From contig NZ_CP043329.1 of assembly GCF_008195825.1 (NCBI RefSeq), forward strand, positions 248,001 through 312,000: 64,000 bases of DNA, in the 5' to 3' direction. Origin of the DNA: Pedobacter aquae. Its GTDB lineage: Bacteria > Bacteroidota > Bacteroidia > Sphingobacteriales > Sphingobacteriaceae. The position numbers and the translations under genes were made by a program. This document shows, piece after piece, positions 3,380-62,969 of the stretch (the stretch's first letter is position 1; the number at the start of each line of letters is the position of its first letter). Under the pieces are notes generated by a model. That model worked only from the letters and a program-made list of their open reading frames with translations, did no database searches and was not told the origin of the DNA.

Positions 3380-6300
3380 ATGATGAGATATTCAAGAATT
3401 GCACTTTTTGTGTGCGTCTTACTAACCTTGATTACTGGTATCGCTATTGCTCAAGATAGCGCTAACATCACCATTAAGGCAGTTATAAAAGACAATAATG
3501 GACTACCAATAATTGGAGCTAATATTATTGATAAGGTAAACAAGATAAGAACGGCCTCAGATAAAACGGGTTCGTTCATTATAGAAACAAAGCCTGAATC
3601 TATTTTAACGATTAACGCTTTTGGCTATGGTATTAAGACAGTAACTGCTTCAAAGGGAGTTAACGAAATTATTTTAATACCTGAAAGTAAATTAACGCCT
3701 ATAGCATTTAACACAGTAGCTCCAGAGGATGTCCCTCCAGGCGTTTCAAATGTTGATTTTGCTAAAATGTTCGAAAATAACTATGGCACTTTCGGTTTCG
3801 AGAATTTAGAAGCATTTGCAGAAGGCTTTAATGGAAATGGTATCTGGGGTATGAGTCAATCTTTAGTATTGATTGACGGTGTACCTCGAGATATTACCGA
3901 TATTATGCCTACTGAAATTGACCAAGTTACTTTTCTGAAGAGCGCAGCAGCAGTTGCACTTTACGGAAGTAGAGGGGCCAACGGTGTAATTTTGGTGACT
4001 ACTAAAACTGGTTCAGAAAATGGACAAAGTATTAGTATTCGCTCTAACGCTGGTTTGCATGTCCCAAAAAGCTATCCTGGTTATTTAGGTTCTTCTGAGT
4101 ACAGGGCACTTTATAACGAGGCAAGAGTTAATGATGGTTTAACTAGATTATATACAGATGAGGATATTTACAATCACTCTGGAATTGATCCTATTCGTTA
4201 TCCAAGCGTTGACTTCTATTCTTCAGAATACCTTAAAAGTAGTTATGCTAGATATGATGTAACTGCAGAGATTTCAGGCGGAAACGAAAAGGCAAGATAT
4301 TATACTAATATGGGTTTTAATTCTACAGGCTCATTATTAGATTTTGGCGAAGCTGCCAAAAATAATACAGCTGATCGTTTCAATATTCGTGGTAATGTTA
4401 ACATGAAGTTAAACAATATTCTTAAGGCCAGAATAAATGCTAGTGCAGTTTTTTATACTTCAAAGGGTGTTAATACTGATTATTGGGGTGGTGCAGCAAG
4501 TATTCGTCCAGATAGATTTACACCTTTAATTCCGATATCTAGGATAGATCCTACTGACGAAACCTCGTTGAATTTAGTTAATAGTAGCCAAAATATTATT
4601 GATGGTAAATTTATTTTAGGAGGAAGAACACTAGATCAAACAAATCCGATTGCTGCCGTTTACGCTGGTGGGACAAATAACTTTAATGCTCGTCAATTTC
4701 AATTTACAACTGGAATAGGCGCAGATTTAAAAGGAATTACTAAAGGTTTAACTTTCGATTCTAACTTAGGTATTGATTATTCTAGTAGTTACAATCAAGG
4801 CTACAGAAACGGTTATTCAACTTTTGAACCTACTTGGACTTCATTTTCAGGTACTTCAACAATTGCGAGCTTAAATCGTCTTGGATTAGATACCAAAACA
4901 GGTAACGAAGTAATCGCTGATAGTTATTACAGACAAACACTTTCTTTGTCAGGGCAACTTAACTACAACAGAACTTTTAGCGAAAAACATAACGTAACCG
5001 GTATATTAATGGGTGGAGGTTTCACTCAATCAGTTTCTCAAGTTTATCAAAAAGTTACTAATGCAAATACCGGTCTTTCATTAGGTTATAATTACAATCG
5101 TAAATATTTCATAGAGCTTACCGGTTCTAGAGTAAATTCTCCAAGGTTATTTGGTAAAAATCAAAATGAATTATCTACAGCAGGTTCATTGGGATGGGAA
5201 ATCAGTGAGGAATCTTTTCTTAAAGATGTATCATTCCTAGATAATTTAAGAATTACCGCCTCTGCTGGTATTTTATACACAGATTTAAACATTAACGACT
5301 ACTTTTTATATGAAGCCATTTATACACAAAGTGACGGTACCTGGCACTCTTGGAATGACGGTGTATTGGTTAGAACCACAGACTCAAGACGTGGTGAAAA
5401 TCTTGATTTAAAAATGGCAAGAAGAGAAGAAATAACTCTTGGCCTTCAAGGTTCTATTTTTAATAATACATTAAGTTTCAGTGGTAATTTCTTTAGAAGC
5501 ACCATGACAGGTATTCCTATTCAAGCAAATGTATTATTTCCAAATTATTTCACTACAGGTTTTCCAAATTCATCATTCATTCCTTTTGTTAATTACAACA
5601 ACGATTTAAGAACAGGTTTTGATTTAAGCTTAAGATTTAATAAACGCATTGGTCAGGTAAACTGGTCAGCTGGTAGTTTTACAACTTTCCAAAGCAGTAA
5701 AGCAACAAAAAGAGCTGAAATTGTAGCAAATAATAATTTATTAAGACAAGGAAGACCACTTGACGGAATATGGGGTTTAAGAAGTAATGGTTTCTATAAT
5801 ACCTCTGAGGAAGCTGCGGCTGCAAATGCTGGCAATGGCGCTCCAAAACCTGCTTTTGGTGATGTAAAACCAGGTGATATTAAATATATCGACTTAAATA
5901 ACGATGGATTAATTAATAACCAAGATGAGGTCTACTTAGGGCGTGGAGGTTTTTCTGGCGCTCCTTTAACAACAGGTCTAAACCTATCTGCAAACTGGAA
6001 AAACTTTACAGTTTTTGTACTTGCTACAGCAAGATTTGGAGCAAATGGTATGAAAGGTTTTGGTAACGCGGCTCAAAGTAACTATTTCTGGGTAAATGGT
6101 GAAGAGAAGTATTCTGTTGAAGTTAGAAACCGTTGGACTCCTGAAACCGCTAGTACCGCAACATTCCCAAGATTAACCACTTTAAATGGAGACAACAACA
6201 ACAGGGCTTCAGATTTTTGGATGTACAGTACTGATAGATTCGATCTTTCTAAAGTTCAAATTACTTACAGACTTACTAATAACGTAATGAAAAGTAAAGT

Positions 6301-9263: not shown

Positions 9264-11408
9264 ATGAAACAATATTATAAAATAGCAATACTTGGTTTTT
9301 TAGCCACAGTTGCTCTTGGCTCTTGTGCTAAGTACGAGACTTTAGATTATAAGGTTGATAAACCACTATCCATTGCAAATCAGGAAGAGATAGATTCCTA
9401 TAAATCTTTAAAGAGTTACATTGATAGTGTAAAATATCCAAATTTTAAATTCGGGGCTGCCATAAATCTTAGTGAGTATGTGAGTAAAGGAGTAATGTAT
9501 AGATTAATCAATTCCAATTTTAATGATATTACGGCTGGTTACGAAATGAAACACAGTTCTATAGTTAGAAATGATGGAACTTTAAATTTAACCAATTTAG
9601 AAAACTTGTACAAAGTTGCTTCAGCAGCAAAAGTTTCTGTTTTTGGTCACACATTAGCATGGCACTCTGGACAAAACGCAACTTATTTAAATAGGTTAAT
9701 TGCTCCACGTATAATTCCAGGGGCATCTGTTCCAACTTGGGACTTAGTCACAGGGGCTAATTTTGAAACCGATGCGGCTACCAATTATTCTTTAAATGCT
9801 AATGCTGTTCCTTCTTTTACAGCTGCAGGCGCTGGCGCAGGTGGTACAGGTAGAGCATTACAAGTTACAAATGCTAGTGTTAGAACCAATGATTACGATG
9901 CTCAATTTTTTATAAGATTTTCTCCTGCAGTTCAAGTAGGCGAAAAGTATGAATTAAAAATGGATGTGCGTTCTGATGTTAATGCTTCTTATAGCACTCA
10001 AGCACATGTAACTCCAGGGGCTTATAAGCATTGGGATTTCTTTGGTACTATTTCATCAACCCCAACTTGGACCAACTACACTAGACAAATAACTGTTACA
10101 GCCGATATGGCTACAAGTGGTGCTATTGCATTTAACTTAGGTAAAACAGCTACTAGTTTTTATTTTGATAATATTACCTTAAAAAAGTATAACGAAAAAG
10201 GAAGTGGTAATGCTGGTTATGCATATTTTGCTACTAATCCTGCTGCTATAAACTTTTGGGAGGCTCAATTTGTACATGATATTCCAACATTACAAAATGG
10301 TCAGGAGTATACTTTAAAATTTGCTGCTAAGGGAAGTATTGCAGGTAACATTAGAGCAGAGTTACAATCAACTTCAAATTATTCGTCTAATGCATTTGGT
10401 ACAATTGCTTTAACAGCTGGCTGGAAAGAGTATACCATGAAAGTTACAACTACAGCAGCAACAAGAAACAGACTTGTATTTAGTCATGGTGACTATGCCG
10501 GTACAGTTACCATAGATAATGTTAAATTAATGCTTGGAGATGGTCCTGCAAATTTAATTCCTACCTCCGACTTTGAAACTGGTACAGGTGCTTGGGGAGG
10601 ATGGGGACCTAATACTTCTCGCGGAAGAACAGCCGATGGTGGTGGTTTTGGAGGAGCATTAGATCAAATTATTGAAAAAACCTCTGCAGAGAAGAAATTA
10701 ATCATCACTAATGCAATGAAAGATTTTATCTCTAAATATGTGGAATTTTCAAAAGATTATGTTAAAGCTTGGGACGTAGTTAACGAGCCAATGGATGACG
10801 GAAGACCTTATGAATTAAAAACTGGAATTGGTAGATCTAGTATTGCTGCTGATGAGTTTTTCTGGCAAGATTACATGGGTAAAGATTATGCTGTAGAAGC
10901 TTTTAAATTAGCTAGATTATACGGTAATCCTACAGATATTCATTTTATAAATGATTATAACCTAGAATACAGTATGGATAAGTGTAAAGGTTTAATAGAA
11001 TATGTGAAATATATCGAAAGTAAAGGTGCTAAAGTTGATGGTATCGGAACTCAAATGCATATCTCTACAACATCAGATAAGGCTAAAATAGAAGAAATGT
11101 TTAGATTATTGGCTGCAACAGGTAAGTTGATTAAGGTTTCTGAGTTAGATATGGGTATCAATAATAAAAAAACTACAGCTATAACAGAAGAGGATTTAAA
11201 AGTTCAGCAAGAGATGTATAAGTTTGTAGTAGAAAAATATTTTGAGATTATCCCTGCTGCACAACGTTATGGTATCACCATTTGGAGTCCATTAGACAGC
11301 CCTGTAAATTCATTCTGGAGAGCGGGTGAACCAATCGGCTTATGGACAGAAGGAATGATAAGAAAGCCATCATATATGGGAGTAGCTGAGGGATTAAAAA
11401 ATAAATAA
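9264..11408 (+). CDS. GH10 endo-1,4-beta-xylanase lipoprotein with carbohydrate-binding modules inserted in the catalytic domain
   Basis: This 714-residue enzyme should cut internal beta-1,4 bonds of xylan at the cell surface. The lipobox ends in Cys21 (ALGSC). The GH10 barrel begins near residue 50 (KFGAAI, then YEMKHSS and HTLAWHSGQN near 130). It is interrupted by about 300 residues of beta-sandwich repeats (about 150-465) that look like two or more CBM4/9-type modules, marked by repeats of the form NFETD/DFETG and YFDNITLKKY. The barrel then resumes. The acid/base is Glu508 in WDVVNEP and the nucleophile is Glu627 in KVSELDMG. A CBM insertion in a GH10 loop is known from Bacteroides xylanases. 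This is the last intact gene of the locus and is followed by a terminator and an IS element. Confidence 0.95.
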   Translation: MKQYYKIAILGFLATVALGSCAKYETLDYKVDKPLSIANQEEIDSYKSLKSYIDSVKYPNFKFGAAINLSEYVSKGVMYRLINSNFNDITAGYEMKHSSIVRNDGTLNLTNLENLYKVASAAKVSVFGHTLAWHSGQNATYLNRLIAPRIIPGASVPTWDLVTGANFETDAATNYSLNANAVPSFTAAGAGAGGTGRALQVTNASVRTNDYDAQFFIRFSPAVQVGEKYELKMDVRSDVNASYSTQAHVTPGAYKHWDFFGTISSTPTWTNYTRQITVTADMATSGAIAFNLGKTATSFYFDNITLKKYNEKGSGNAGYAYFATNPAAINFWEAQFVHDIPTLQNGQEYTLKFAAKGSIAGNIRAELQSTSNYSSNAFGTIALTAGWKEYTMKVTTTAATRNRLVFSHGDYAGTVTIDNVKLMLGDGPANLIPTSDFETGTGAWGGWGPNTSRGRTADGGGFGGALDQIIEKTSAEKKLIITNAMKDFISKYVEFSKDYVKAWDVVNEPMDDGRPYELKTGIGRSSIAADEFFWQDYMGKDYAVEAFKLARLYGNPTDIHFINDYNLEYSMDKCKGLIEYVKYIESKGAKVDGIGTQMHISTTSDKAKIEEMFRLLAATGKLIKVSELDMGINNKKTTAITEEDLKVQQEMYKFVVEKYFEIIPAAQRYGITIWSPLDSPVNSFWRAGEPIGLWTEGMIRKPSYMGVAEGLKNK

Positions 11409-11428
11409 TTGGATTTTTATTGGAAGAG

Positions 11429-11462
11429 GCTGTCTCAGAAATAAACTGAGGCAGCTTTTTTT
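11429..11462 (+). terminator. Rho-independent terminator after the xylan locus, formed by the IS1182 end
   Basis: A 10-bp stem, GCTGTCTCAG at 11429-11438 with CTGAGGCAGC at 11446-11455 (one G-U pair), is followed by seven T. It lies 20 bases after the xylanase stop. The left arm overlaps the terminal repeat of the IS1182-family element, so the mobile element supplies the terminator. Confidence 0.75.
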
Positions 11463-11565
11463 ATTAGCTATCTAATTTGCCGATATTTTTATTGAGGAGT
11501 ATGACTTAGATATGTAATGGCTCAATAGAGAAGCTAAAGCCTTAAAAGGGGAGAAAACAGCTTTT

Positions 11566-13101
11566 CTAAGCTGCTTTTTTTCTTAAGTTATGAGCAATAG
11601 CGATTAATCCCCATTCTATTTCCACTTTTTTCTTACCTCTGAGCATAAATCTCTTAAAGCCATGGTTATGCTTGATATTTCCAAAGACAGGTTCAACATC
11701 ATAACACCTTTTTTTACGATGCATTACTCCTTGTTCTGAATTCAGGAGCTGATAGGCCTGCTCTTTAAGTCTGTTGAGGCTTGCATTGATTTCTATAATC
11801 CTGTTTTCCTTAGATTTATGGCATACTCCATTTAATGGACAATGACTGCAATTCTTTGCTTGATACCTTCTATAGGTTTGCTTAAAGCCGGTGGTGGTTT
11901 GTTTTCTACTATCTCCTACATAAGTCATTGCTTGACCCATCGGACAGATATACTGGTCATTTACCTCATCATAATATAGTTTATCACTAGCAAAGAGCTG
12001 TTTGTCTTGATATCGCTGACTTTGCTCTTTATCAAACTTCCCATATTTTACAAAAGCAGCAACATTCAGTTCTTCCAGTAAAGCGTAATTCTCTTCTGAA
12101 CCATAACCAGCATCGGCAGTGAGTGATTGAGGTGCAGTACCAAAGCTTTGCTGGTGCTGGGCAAGATGTAAAGCTAAAGTAGTGGTATCTGTAGGATTAG
12201 GGTGAATGGTATAATTAACGATGTATTGGTTGGATGTTGAGATTTGAGTATTATAACCTGGCTTGAGCTGCCCGTTTTTCATGTGGTCTTCTTTCATACG
12301 CATAAAAGTGGCATCTTCATCGGTCTTACTATAACTGTTGCGTTCTCCTAAAATAGCTTCCTGCTGCTCATACTTATCCATGTTCTTAAGAAAGTTCTTA
12401 TTGATGTAGTTCAGCTTTGCCTTTACTTTTTTGTCGATGTTTTTCTTATCTGCTAAAGCTTCATTCAGCTGCGCAATAGCCTCTTCTACTTTTTCTTTAT
12501 TGATAGTGGTCAAATCTGGAGGCTCCGGTAAATCATCTTCTGTGTCACTGATGTTTTGGGCATACTGCCAGATTTGATTAATTTGAGCTTTCATTTTCTC
12601 CTTATTGGTTTGGATGGCCTTCTTCCACACAAAGGTGTATTTATTGGCATTGGCTTCTATCTTGGTACCATCAGTATAAACCTCTTCAATACTCAACAAA
12701 CCCTCTTGTGCCAATAAAGTAACCACTTGTTCAAATACTTTTCTTAATGCATCTTTTAGCCTTTCGCCCCTAAAGCGGTTAATGGTATGATGATCGGGGC
12801 GGTTCATGGCACTCAGCCACATAAAATGGATATTCTCTTTACAGGCTGCTTCTAGTTTACGGGAAGAGTAGATATTGCTTACATAACCATAAACCAATAC
12901 CTTAAGCAACATCAAAGGATGATAGGACGATGTGCCTTTGGTCTGATAAGCTGATAATAAAGGTTCTACATTGATGCGATTGATAACCTCATTGACTACT
13001 CTAACTGTATGACTTTCAGGTATAAGCTCCTCTAAGGAGGGAGGAAGCATCATGATTTGATGCTGATTATAGGGCTTGAAAACAGGTGCTTTATTTGGCA
13101 T
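11566..13101 (-). CDS. IS1182-family DDE transposase
   Basis: This 511-residue transposase is apparently intact. The N-terminal region (MLPPSLEELIPESHTVRVVNEVI, then SSRKLEAACKENIHFMWLS) is the DUF772-type domain of the IS1182 group. Catalytic acidic residues are suggested by VYTDGTKIEANA, LTADAGYGSEEN and the C-terminal EPVFGNIKHNHGF. A cysteine cluster in the late middle (KNCSHCPLNGVCHKS) is also typical of the family. It fills most of the element bounded by the repeats at 11424 and 13232. As the frame is full length, the element may still be mobile. Confidence 0.95.
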   Translation of the reverse strand: MPNKAPVFKPYNQHQIMMLPPSLEELIPESHTVRVVNEVINRINVEPLLSAYQTKGTSSYHPLMLLKVLVYGYVSNIYSSRKLEAACKENIHFMWLSAMNRPDHHTINRFRGERLKDALRKVFEQVVTLLAQEGLLSIEEVYTDGTKIEANANKYTFVWKKAIQTNKEKMKAQINQIWQYAQNISDTEDDLPEPPDLTTINKEKVEEAIAQLNEALADKKNIDKKVKAKLNYINKNFLKNMDKYEQQEAILGERNSYSKTDEDATFMRMKEDHMKNGQLKPGYNTQISTSNQYIVNYTIHPNPTDTTTLALHLAQHQQSFGTAPQSLTADAGYGSEENYALLEELNVAAFVKYGKFDKEQSQRYQDKQLFASDKLYYDEVNDQYICPMGQAMTYVGDSRKQTTTGFKQTYRRYQAKNCSHCPLNGVCHKSKENRIIEINASLNRLKEQAYQLLNSEQGVMHRKKRCYDVEPVFGNIKHNHGFKRFMLRGKKKVEIEWGLIAIAHNLRKKAA

Positions 13102-13303
13102 TACATCTTATTGATTTACACTTAAATATAAGTAAATCAAGTATTTATACCAAAAAAAATATGAAATTTTATCTACTAAAATAACTCATTATTATCAAAC
13201 AAAAAGAGACTGCCTTTTTGAGACAGCCTCTTTTTTTTGCTAATTTTTTTTCACCATCATTTTATCTCTCTTTAAACCTTATTAGAGAATTAAACTTGTG
13301 TTC

Positions 13304-13393
13304 ATGCATTTTAAAAGTATTTTAATAGGTATCTTCCTACTAACATTCATCGATTTTGTAAACAGTCAGGAAAATAACAAAATATTATTATTA
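13304..13393 (+). pseudogene. 5' fragment of a secreted sialate/acetylxylan-esterase-like gene cut by IS982
   Basis: An ATG at 13304 opens a 30-codon frame with a clear signal peptide (MHFKSILIGIFLLTF, then VNSQ) that runs straight into the left end of the IS982-family element at 13394. The C-terminal end of an esterase of the sialate O-acetylesterase type appears in a forward frame just past the other end of the element. The two pieces together are far shorter than such an enzyme (usually above 600 residues). The assignment of this 5' piece to the same gene as the 3' piece is inference from position and orientation. Confidence 0.6.
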
Positions 13394-14440
13394 ACGTGAG
13401 TTCGGGATAACAGAGGTTAGATTAATTTGGATTATTTTAAAATACAATCATCTGATTATCAAATAAGTAAGCATATTTTGTTATATTTAAGTGACAAATT
13501 TAAGAACAACAATTTATGCTTACTTCTGATAAAATTATTGAAATTTTTGTAAAAGTTGATGATTTCTGCAAAGAATTTGAAGCTGAAATAGTTAAACATC
13601 AATTAGATGCAGGTCATTATAAGGTTAGAAACAGAAAAGCATCACTTGCTGATAGTGAAATCATGACCATATTGATTACCTTTCATAGTGGTTATTACAC
13701 TAATCTGAAACACTTTTATCTAGGATTTATTTGCCAGCATTATAAAGATCATTTCCCTGGTCTTGTTTCCTATAACCGATTTGTAGAACTACAACAACGT
13801 GTAGCAGTACCTATGATGCTGTTCTTAAAAACCCACTGTTTAGGACGTTCCGCAGGAATAAATTTTATTGATTCTACACATATTAAAGTTTGTCATAATC
13901 GGCGAATCCACAACCACAAGGTATTTGCTGCTGTAGCAGAGCGGGGGCAATGTTCTATTGGTTGGTTTTATGGATTCAAACTACATCTGATTATTAACGA
14001 CAAAGGCGAAATACTGTCTTTCTACCTTACCAAGGGCAATGTAGACGACCGTAACATTAAACTGATGACTTCTATGACTCAAGATATTTTCGGTAAATTA
14101 TTTGGTGATAAGGGATACATATCTAAAGCTTTGGCTGATTTGCTTTGGGGAAATGGTATCCAAATGATTACTAAACCTCGTAAAAACATGAAAGAATTTA
14201 ACATCTCACAAGCTGATAAGATTATGCTTCGCAAAAGAGCTATTATCGAATGTGTTAATGATGAACTAAAAAATATCTGCAAGCTCCAGCATACTCGTCA
14301 TCGTTCTATCAATAACTTCTTGATGAATACTATGGGGGTGCTTTGTGCTTATCATTTCTTCCCTAAAAAACCTTCTCTTAATATTATTTTTGAAGATCAC
14401 GATAAACAACTCCTTTTAGCTGCTTAAACCGAACTCACGT
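13394..14440 (+). mobile_element. IS982-family insertion sequence
   Basis: A 1.05-kb element has perfect 12-bp terminal inverted repeats, ACGTGAGTTCGG at 13394-13405 and its reverse complement at 14429-14440. The repeat can be extended outward by TTA/TAA on the two sides. It holds one plus-strand transposase. The flanks (TATTATTA and TAAATATA) do not form a convincing direct target duplication, which fits a deletion next to the element after insertion. Coding sequence of one esterase-like gene ends at the left edge and resumes at the right edge. Confidence 0.9.
13516..14427 (+). CDS. IS982-family transposase
   Basis: This 303-residue DDE transposase is apparently intact. The acidic triad is suggested by [20 protein letters not shown] and [11 protein letters not shown], with the family motif [11 protein letters not shown] near the C-terminus. 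The start ATG lies 122 bases inside the left repeat and the stop lies just before the right repeat, the usual compact layout of IS982. The element separates the two esterase remnants. Confidence 0.95.
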
Positions 14441-14441
14441 T

Positions 14442-14540
14442 AAATATATACGTTACGCTTGGGCGGATAACCCGGTGAACCCAAATTTATACAATAAGGA
14501 AAAACTTCCTGCTTCTCCTTTTAGAACAGATGAATGGTAA
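14442..14540 (+). pseudogene. 3' fragment of a sialate O-acetylesterase / acetylxylan-esterase-like gene
   Basis: Directly after the right end of IS982 a frame reads [18 protein letters not shown] and then [11 protein letters not shown] before a TAA at 14538. That ending is characteristic of the C-terminus of the sialate O-acetylesterase family of SGNH esterases, which in Bacteroidota xylan loci often act as acetylxylan esterases. About 32 codons remain, so the catalytic domain is missing. Together with the signal-peptide fragment at 13304 this marks the place of a deleted deacetylase that would have acted with the xylanase. The family call rests on recognition of this short end. Confidence 0.7.
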
Positions 14541-14804: not shown

Positions 14805-14812
14805 TTCTAGTG

Positions 14813-14886
14813 TAGCGGGGAGCAGGATCGAACTGCCGACCTCAGGGTTATGAATCCTGCGCTCTAACCATCTGAGCTACCCCGCC
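14813..14886 (-). tRNA. tRNA-Met (CAT anticodon)
   Basis: A complete 74-nt cloverleaf reads on the minus strand. The acceptor stem is GGCGGGG / CCCCGCT with a G-U first pair, the D-arm is GCTC..GAGC, the anticodon loop is TTCATAA, and a T-arm with TTCGATC is present. The CCA tail is not encoded. The paired first base and the lack of the three-G anticodon stem argue for an elongator Met tRNA. A CAT anticodon can also belong to the lysidine-modified Ile tRNA, which cannot be excluded. One oddity is an A-C mismatch at the loop-closing pair of the anticodon stem (GGATTCATAACCC instead of the expected AATCC). Confidence 0.9.
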
Positions 14887-14905: not shown

Positions 14906-14959
14906 CAGGTTATGAATCCTGCGCTCTTCCCAATAGCTATCGGGGCATCTAAGCTAACC
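14906..14959 (-). repeat. Degenerate tRNA-Met half-copy with a palindromic insert
   Basis: Twenty bases upstream of the tRNA (minus-strand sense) lies a second copy of its 5' half. The anticodon arm copy is at 14906-14927, nearly identical to 14843-14865. The D-stem region copy is at 14946-14959, similar to 14869-14883. The two parts are split by about 18 bases containing the near-palindrome CCCAATAGCTATCGGG at 14930-14945, which takes the place of three D-loop bases. No acceptor or T-arm is left, so it cannot be a working tRNA. Confidence 0.75.
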
Positions 14960-15078
14960 TTTCAATTAATGGTCTTTTTTAAAAGGTTTGCAAATATAAA
15001 GTAAAATACCTTTCTTTAGAAAAGTTTGTGAAAAAAACTTTGATATATTTTTACCCTAGCAATTTATAAATCTTATAC

Positions 15079-54500: not shown

Positions 54501-57316
54501 GTGAATCAAAAATTATTTAGCTCATTTTCTATCATTAGCATACTGCTAATAACTTTATCAACAAATGTTTTTGCGCAAACTGGCAAAATTGCAGGTAAAG
54601 TTACCGATAAAACTACTGGAGAAACATTAATAGGTTTATACGTAGGTATAGATGGTACAACTAAAGGTGCTGTAACAGATGTTGATGGCCGTTATACGCT
54701 GCTAAATTTAGCACCAGGCAAGTACAATTTAGTATTCAAATATTTAGGTTATCAAACCAAAAACGTAAGTAATATAGAAGTAAAGGATGGTGTTGTTTCT
54801 ACATTAAATATCATCATGGAAGAAGCCGCTACACAAAGCTTAGGTGAAATTGTAGTCACTGCAACTTACAGTAGAGAATCTGAAACGGCTCTTATCTTAA
54901 ACCAAAAGAACTCTATAGAAATTAAACAAGGAATAGGGGCGCAAGAGTTATCAAGAAAGGGTATTGGTGATGTAGAAGAAGGTTTAACCAAAATTACAGG
55001 TATAACTAAAGTTGATGGTAGAGGTTTATTTGTTCGTGGTTTAGAGGATAGGTATAATAATTTGCTTATCAACGGTTTGGCTGTTCCATCTAATAATCCT
55101 TTCAAGAAAATTATTCCGCTAGATCTTTTTCCTACAGATATTGTAAGTGTTTTAGAAACATCTAAGACTTTTAATTCTAGCTTGTACGGAGATTTTGCCG
55201 GTGGTACATTTAATATTGTAACATCTAAAGGCGAAAAGCCGGTTACCAAAATCAGTATCGGGACAAGCTTTTGTCTAACACAACTTTTAGGAAGTTTTTA
55301 AGAGCAGAAGACGCAACTTCTTTAGAGAATTATGTAGGTTTTGGTGCCGATACAAGATCGCTACCTAAAGCTTTTGGTAGCAGACCATCTGCTTACATGA
55401 TGCCTGCCAGTGAAGCGCTTTCGCAATTTGGTTCTGGTTATGATGTAGAAAGCGGGAACGCACCTTTAAATACAAGTTTGAATATTCTACATACACAAAG
55501 ATTTCAGTTAGAAAAAGATCGTTCTTTCCAATATCTATTTTCGTTAAATACCGATAATAACTTTCAATACAGAGAAGGGGTAGATAGGTTCTTTAATACA
55601 GCACAAGGTATTTATGATAACAATCTTTATACTACAACGAACAGGTTTTCTACCAATTCATCAGTATTATCTGCCATAAACTATGGCACCAAAAGATTAA
55701 GCCTTAATCTCAACGCCTTTTATTTGAGAGGTACAGAAAACACCATTCAAGACCAATTGGGCTATACCAATAGTCAGGCAACTGTTTCCAATGCATTCAT
55801 CAGACTAAATCAATTACAAAAAACAGATTTCTTTACTGGTCAGCTTTTCACGAACTATAAGTTGACAAAAAATGATGCCCATAGCATCAAAGCAGGTGTT
55901 TCTTATTCAAAAACTCAATACCAATTACCAGACAGAAAATCTTTTAGAGGGTCTCTTATTGATGAACATACGACTTCTGTAAACTATTCTGGAAATAGCT
56001 TATACAGACAATACATGAATTTTGATGGGGATTTCTTTGGGTCTGGATTGTTAGAATATAACTGGAAGTTTGGTCATGATGATTTAACAAAGGCTCATAA
56101 ATTAAGCTTAGGATATAACGGTTCCTTCAATAAAGTAGCATCAAGTTCAAGATTTATAGTGTCTCAGAATTTAGCATCGAATAACACAAGCTTTAACACC
56201 AATGCTCCAGATGCTACTTTAGCAAATGAAATAGCAAATGGTAATTTCACTTACAGAGAAGGTAGTAATGCTACTTATGCGGCTACTATGAGAGAAGGTG
56301 TAAACGCAGGTTATGCAGATTTAGCTCTTCAATTTAATGATAAGTTAAACATTAACGTAGGCGCTAGAGTTGAACAATCAGAGCGTTTAACCAGATTTAG
56401 AAATCCTGGAAGTTTTAGTGATCCTTTTCAAAGAGTTAAATTAAATAATTTAGATGTTTTACCTGCTGCCAATTTAAAATATAGTTTAACAGACAAAGCA
56501 AATTTAAGATTTTCGGCTTCAAAAACTTTAACCAAGCCTGTTATCATGGAAGCCTTTCCTCTAGAATTTGTTAACCCTGACGCTACTATCGAAAGCGGTA
56601 ATCCTAATATTATTAATAGTGATAACTATAACTTTGATGCTAAATACGAGTTCTTTCCAACAAACAAAGAAATGTTTGCCTTTACTGCTTTTGCTAAGTA
56701 TATAGAAAACCCCATAGAACGTTTGTTTCTACAAACAGCAGGTAGTGGTGGTTTGCAAATAACTTACAATAACTCAAAACAAGCAGTACTTTACGGAGCA
56801 GAAATAGAATTCTTATTACAGTTATCCAGACTAAGCGAATCTCTTTCAAACTTTTCAGCAGGGTTCAACACTTCTTTGATGTATACCAGAACAACTATAG
56901 ATGTTGTTAAAAACAGTGTTGAAACTGCTGCTATTGGCGATAATAATACACGTAGACTTCAAGGTGCATCACCATGGTTAATAAATGCTGACATCAAACA
57001 CGAAACAGATTTTAGCAAAAAATGGAAAAGTACCATGACTTTAGCTTATAGCATTTACGGAGAGCGTATTTACGCAGTAGGAACCAATGGCTTAGATAAT
57101 TATTATGAAAAACCATTTGGAAAGCTTGACTTTATTTGGAACAATAAGATATCTACTAAATGGGATGTGAAATTAGGAATAGAAAACATCCTGAACCCAA
57201 CTTACAGAATAGATTTAGGTGATGAAAGTACCATCCAAATTTTTGAGAATGATTTAACCGTTAAAGACTTTAAAAGAGGAGTAGGGGTGTCTTTAGGTTT
57301 AGGATATACTTTCTAA
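54501..57316 (+). CDS. TonB-dependent receptor with carboxypeptidase-like N-terminal domain, frameshifted
   Basis: This outer-membrane receptor has a signal peptide (STNVFAQ), a carboxypeptidase-regulatory-like domain (about 28-115), a plug (VDGRGLFVRGLEDRYNNLLINGLAVPS) and a barrel ending VGVSLGLGYTF. The frame breaks at 55269-55272, where four T are present. One more T links ISIGTSF to LSNTTFRKFLRAEDATSLE and gives 938 residues with a whole number of codons. As written, the first frame ends at 55301 and the second opens at a TTG at 55271. The start codon is GTG. It has no SusD and is paired with a beta-helix lipoprotein 102 bases downstream. Confidence 0.9.
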
Positions 57317-62089: not shown

Positions 62090-62969
62090 ATGAATCAAAA
62101 ATTTAAAGAATACTTTAGTATTTCTCGTCAGGAATATAGAGGTTTAATAGTGCTTTTTGTACTTCTAGGACTTATTTATACAGCTCCTTATATTTATGAA
62201 CGCTTCTTTTTCAAGCCTTTAGAAATAAAAATAGAAACCATTAAGCCCGCTTTAGCTCAAATAGATCGTTATGAAAGTACCGCTTATAACAATCAGGAAG
62301 AAGATTTTCATAAACCTGTATTATTTAGGTTTAATCCTAACCATTTACCTGTTGAAGATTGGATAAAGCTAGGGCTTTCAGAAAAACAAGCGCATTCTAT
62401 TAAAAAGTATGAAGCCAAAGGAGGCAAGTTTTACAAGAAGGAAGATGTAAAAAAATGTATGCTATTTCTCCGGCTATGTACCAACGTCTAGAGCCTTATA
62501 TAGATATTCCAGAAAATAAAAGGAGACTTATACGATTGATAAGAAGAGGGAGTCTTTCCCTAAAAAAGCTTTGATTATGGTTGATGTAAACGATGCAGAT
62601 TCATTACAGCTATTAAACATCAAAGGAATAGGACCTGCATTTGCATCTAGAATTATCAAATACAGAAATAGGTTAGGCGGTTTTATCAGAAAAGAGCAAT
62701 TATTGGAAGTTTATGGACTAGATTCTGTTAAATATGCACAAATAGAAAATCAGATTTTGGTAGATAAAGAGAAAATTACACCTATCCATATCAATACAGC
62801 TGAATTTGCAGATCTGAAGAGGTTTCCATACCTGTCTTATAAACAAATGAACGCTATTATCGCTTATCGTAAGCAGCATGGGGTTTATAAATCTATTACA
62901 GATTTAAGTAAAATCCACATCTTAAATCCCGAAATAATCAGTAAAATTGCTCCTTATATCCAACTCTAA
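62090..62969 (+). CDS. ComEA-like helix-hairpin-helix protein, two frameshifts
   Basis: This protein has an N-terminal membrane helix (EYRGLIVLFVLLGLIYTAPYIY) and a C-terminal region with three helix-hairpin-helix units (about 70-115, 160-220 and 225-293), for instance VDVNDADSLQLLNIKGIGPAFASRI and INTAEFADLKRFPYLSYKQMNAII. The frame breaks twice: at a run of seven A (62449-62455) and at a run of four A (62518-62521). Adding one A at each gives KMYAISPAMYQRLEPYIDI and then the rest, 293 residues in all. The stop overlaps the apt start by one base. DNA binding is expected for the repeats; a link to DNA uptake is not established. Confidence 0.82.

Follow-up and report, generated by a model that had tools for sequence, protein, structure and literature searches.

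Evidence that a deletion beside an IS982 element removed most of a CE20-type acetyl esterase gene from a xylan locus of Pedobacter aquae

We analysed a 64,000-nucleotide stretch of Pedobacter aquae DNA (the window), part of a 3.85 Mb, single-contig genome whose genus group includes the genomes of Pedobacter cryophilus and Pelobium manganitolerans. Our analyses support the conclusion that a deletion beside an IS982-family element removed most of a CE20-type esterase gene. In the full account, which we consider quite probable, IS982 inserted into the esterase gene and a deletion then extended into the gene of an upstream secreted protein. The case is an ordinary, well-known kind of IS-associated gene loss, of which this is a new example.

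An earlier reading of the window, made from the sequence only, had placed IS982 between two gene pieces, with coordinates that are right to the base. The right piece (14442..14540, + strand) comprises the last 32 codons plus the stop codon of a CE20-type acetyl esterase gene. By tblastn, it is 90% identical to residues 618-648 of a P. cryophilus protein; over 33 codons, 18 are the same, 10 are synonymous, and 5 are changed. The esterase homology opens exactly at the IS982 border, with the first bases after the element, and in frame. The intact P. cryophilus orthologue (L055 9951-11894; 648 codons) encodes SASA and GH2-type domains and matches two solved CE20 enzymes over nearly its full length: PpCE20_II (9EGA; 1e-276) and Fl8CE20_II (9H4U; 5e-189).

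The surrounding gene order points to the same orthologue. The window encodes a GH10 xylanase with CBM4_9 domains identified by Pfam (9264..11408, + strand), which is 76% identical to its P. cryophilus orthologue (L055 12078-14222), and in P. cryophilus this GH10 is the direct upstream neighbour of the esterase. Up to the esterase, the P. cryophilus locus is collinear with the window (GH43-HTCS-SusC-SusD-SusC-SusD-DUF5627-GH10), and the gene that follows the GH10 there is the intact 648-aa esterase. Comparison with a relative that keeps the gene, which had been proposed as a check, thus finds it intact directly after the same GH10, and the syntenic orthologue bears out the identification of the right piece as a sialate-O-acetylesterase C-terminus.

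The catalytic GQSNM serine block (at 114 of the orthologue) and the NDIHP (DxH) block (at 519) both fall in the deleted part. Because all catalytic residues lie within the missing part, the right piece is a pseudogene remnant and not an enzyme. The missing 617 codons have no close match elsewhere in the single-contig genome; beyond the remnant, the best match is a 47% identical paralogue at 2.116 Mb, which rules out translocation of the esterase body. Together with the intact orthologue and the lack of a target duplication (below), the absence of this body upholds the claim that the esterase was lost by deletion at the IS982 border.

The IS982-family element itself is complete (13394..14440, + strand; 1,047 bp), with intact ends (ACGTGAG...CTCACGT) and terminal inverted repeats that begin with 5' AC (ACGTGAGTTCGG on both ends). 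Its transposase ORF is intact (13516..14427, + strand; 303 aa; Pfam DDE_Tnp_1_3, NCBIfam transpos_IS982) and is of the IS982 type, scoring 245.7 bits against NF033520 transpos_IS982 (cut-off 130). Besides IS982 fragments, the genome has a second full copy (2,444,513-2,445,559) that is 100% identical over all 1,047 bases, so the element has probably moved recently.

No target duplication flanks the window copy (left flank ATATTATTATTA, right flank TAAATATATACG). The left flank at the IS982 border, TATTATTA (13386..13393), ends in TATTA, which resembles an IS982-family target site and mismatches the right flank. On the right, codon alignment with P. cryophilus picks out TAAATA (14441..14446), which spans CE20 codons 617-619 in P. 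cryophilus numbering. These six bases are putatively what remains, on the right, of a 6-bp target duplication; they fit the IS982 target pattern TA...TA, and a related copy (L230) has the same six bases as its duplication. Elsewhere in the genome, perfect duplications were found at all intact IS982-family copies checked (8/8): the identical second IS982 copy has a 7-bp duplication (TAATTTA), and 5-bp duplications, such as TATTA, TAATA, TACTA, and TATGA, flank each of seven copies belonging to two related elements. Among intact related copies in other genomes, six out of eight are flanked by TA...TA duplications of 6-7 bp, while two (L232 and L237) are intact without a perfect one. Because of these two, a missing duplication alone is no proof of deletion; however, since all other intact copies checked in the same genome are duplicated, its absence from the window copy goes beyond chance. 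The earlier observation that a clear duplication is lacking therefore holds. A swap of flanks with the second copy was considered and ruled out, as the duplication of that copy matches on its own two sides. Unmatched flanks are what would be expected to remain after a deletion from an IS end to another target site or after recombination between two copies.

An assembler that collapsed a true arrangement of IS982, esterase region, and IS982 would give the same picture, and the two full copies, identical over 1,047 bp, are of the kind that could be merged in this way. Apparent frameshifts in neighbouring genes also hint at imperfect assembly. We nevertheless regard such an artefact as very unlikely, given that the single-contig assembly suggests long reads able to span 1 kb and that the intact duplication of the second copy excludes exchanged flanks.

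The apparent frameshifts affect four genes. In the same xylan locus, a second GH10 has one near residue 40 (L060 ~5570-5700; genome 237,570-237,690), and the GH67 gene has one near its end (genome 217,504-219,542; L222). Within the window, a TonB-dependent receptor (54501-57316) appears to be divided between two ORFs that overlap in different reading frames, and a gene for a helix-hairpin-helix (ComEA-like) protein (62090-62969) also appears to be split into two ORFs; both patterns suggest a frameshift. Taken together, the frameshifts point to errors of the assembly at base level or to more general decay, and neither accounts for a deletion of kilobase size.

The left piece (13304..13399, + strand) is a signal-peptide-like ORF of 31 codons plus a stop, identified from the sequence; 30 codons run up to the IS982 border, and one more codon (T) and TGA lie inside the IS end. 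Its product (MHFKSILIGIFLLTFIDFVNSQENNKILLL, opening with MHFKSILIGIFLL) resembles a signal peptide followed by ~9 mature residues. Protein searches of 251 genomes of the family returned only matches at the level of signal peptides (best E 0.03), and at the DNA level the only significant matches within the genus were to the end of an IS1182 element.

The two pieces had been read as the two ends of one esterase gene, in which case the deletion would be internal to that gene and its N-terminus unusually divergent. Position fits this reading: the left piece is the first same-strand ORF past the GH10, beyond the IS1182 element, and in several relatives, P. cryophilus among them, CE20 is the next gene after the GH10. 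Signal peptides also diverge fast. The residues themselves speak against it: no more than a few residues past the signal peptide, Leu-Pro is present in 30/30 CE20 homologues from the family and in the CE20-type genes that neighbour a GH10 in additional relatives, but it is absent across the nine residues of the left piece. Against a profile of CE20 starts, the left piece scores 2.8 bits, which is background level: in a set of 112 unrelated secreted N-termini, 56% match it. The left piece is therefore probably not a CE20 start, and we consider a single, internally deleted gene improbable. Of the approximately 62 codons that had been assigned to one gene, the 32 on the right do come from the esterase; those on the left have no demonstrable esterase origin. 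The sequence-only reading had also offered a check, namely whether the two pieces match different genes in relatives, and the comparison leans towards that outcome, with the right piece matching CE20 and the left piece having no clear relative.

Based on these comparisons, a second gene lying between the GH10 and CE20 probably began with the left piece. When we compared the next genes after orthologous GH10s, a CE20 or a short CE6-like esterase was frequent in relatives, and in some relatives the GH10 and CE20 are separated by a GH43-like gene or by one that encodes a lipoprotein of 511-525 aa. The lipoprotein and GH43-like genes were ruled out as sources of the left piece, as their starts bear no resemblance to it. 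A GH67 (alpha-glucuronidase) start was rejected as well: the Gly-x-x-Leu-Trp-type motif is lacking, and the score of 5.7 bits is matched by 48% of the background.

A special case of our preferred account holds that the second gene was a short CE6-like (SASA-domain) esterase, so that two esterases were lost. In about ten relatives, the gene immediately 3' of this GH10 is CE6-like, and SQENNKILLL in the left piece resembles AQDKNFHIYL, which precedes GQSNM in the CE6-like family. The left piece also scores higher against the CE6-like start profile (7.6 bits) than against the CE20 profile. This score is not significant, however: 15% of the secreted N-termini in the background equal it, and true CE6-like family members reach at least 13.8 bits. 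P. cryophilus has no CE6-like gene at this place. We thus view a CE6-like origin as rather unlikely. The search found no close relative that has the same gene upstream of the esterase, and the ancestral arrangement on that side is thus unseen.

Between the GH10 and the left piece lies an IS1182-family element (11425..13231, - strand; ends AGAGGCTGTCTCA and TGAGACAGCCTCT), whose transposase at 11566-13101 matches NCBIfam transpos_IS1182 (1e-140). A genome search found one full copy, and no target duplication could be defined for it when the element ends were compared with related copies. Separately, the genome contains at least nine short (~120 bp) MITE-like elements with the same ends as the window element (AGAGGCTGTCTCA; e.g., L136-L144). 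With the IS1182-family element subtracted, the left piece starts ~90 bases past the GH10; in P. cryophilus, CE20 starts ~180 bases past it.

In the account that we favour, IS982 would first have inserted into the CE20-type esterase gene downstream of the GH10, ~31 codons before the gene end. DNA from the left end of the IS to a point inside the start of the upstream secreted-protein gene would then have been removed, either by an IS-adjacent deletion made by the transposase or by homologous recombination with another copy of the IS that lay in the upstream gene. Either event would take away at least the first 617 esterase codons (~1.85 kb) and leave one IS with unmatched flanks; of the upstream gene, very little would probably survive. 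The deletion thus likely removed two genes. The order of events, the assignment of the left piece to a different gene, and the use of either route are what we infer; both routes would fit the sequence, and neither is favoured. IS copies that lack duplications through adjacent deletion or IS-IS recombination have been documented (PMC11708052).

The xylan locus is bounded on the right, based on flanking synteny, by a tRNA-Met gene (14812..14886, - strand). Just past this intact gene is a degenerate partial tRNA-Met repeat (GGTTATGAATCCTGCGCTCT; 14908-14960), which is missing from a close relative (G007; L054) and could be what is left of an integration at this tRNA, the end point of the xylan locus. 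We also compared the order of GH97, GH3, and GH10 orthologues between genome positions 214,860-238,000 and P. cryophilus contig G002:C14. In P. cryophilus these genes are 3' of the esterase, whereas here they are upstream of the locus and in a different order; the xylan locus has thus undergone rearrangement in addition to shortening.

PpCE20_II and Fl8CE20_II both belong to the xylan-associated cluster II of CE20, and Fl8CE20_II deacetylates xylan (PMC12313940). By analogy, the product of the lost gene would have deacetylated xylan. The sequence-only reading had predicted the loss of a deacetylase; a CE20-type gene is indeed gone, but the genes that remain weaken the functional claim. Next to another GH10, at 2.116 Mb, sits the 47% CE20-type paralogue. 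The genome also keeps three more genes with SASA domains, among them one for a short esterase that belongs to this xylan locus and lies ~22 kb upstream. Growth on acetylated xylan may be impaired, and because these esterases remain, the prediction of a phenotype is weak. One could go further and propose that the lineage shed a xylan deacetylation module of two adjacent esterases in a single IS982 step, as an adaptive narrowing of substrates. We consider this extremely unlikely; if the loss were adaptive, the remaining esterases would take over, or the niche would offer mainly deacetylated xylan.

The junction represents a well-bounded case of gene loss associated with an IS within a polysaccharide utilisation locus, and it warns that two gene ends flanking an IS may stem from different genes. 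In practice, it is of value for annotation and for choosing P. cryophilus as the intact reference locus.

We compared the window with three known systems. The mobile element agrees with the IS982 family (PMC7335449) in its length of about 1 kb, its inverted repeats opening with AC, and its single IS982-type transposase, but lacks the direct repeats that its relatives have. Such repeats are a property of a fresh insertion and are lost by rearrangement, and the membership of the element in IS982 is independent of them. The lost esterase, as represented by the P. cryophilus orthologue, resembles PpCE20_II of Pedobacter psychrotolerans (PDB 9EGA; PMC12313940) in its GQSNM and NDIHP motifs, its inserted GH2-type domain, and its neighbourhood of xylan enzymes; in contrast, the P. 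aquae genome keeps only the 32 final codons, with no catalytic residue. Finally, the junction is like those of the E. coli long-term evolution experiment (PMC11708052), in which a single intact IS stands at the deletion border without a target duplication, although the IS family and the host differ and the intermediate state is unobserved here.
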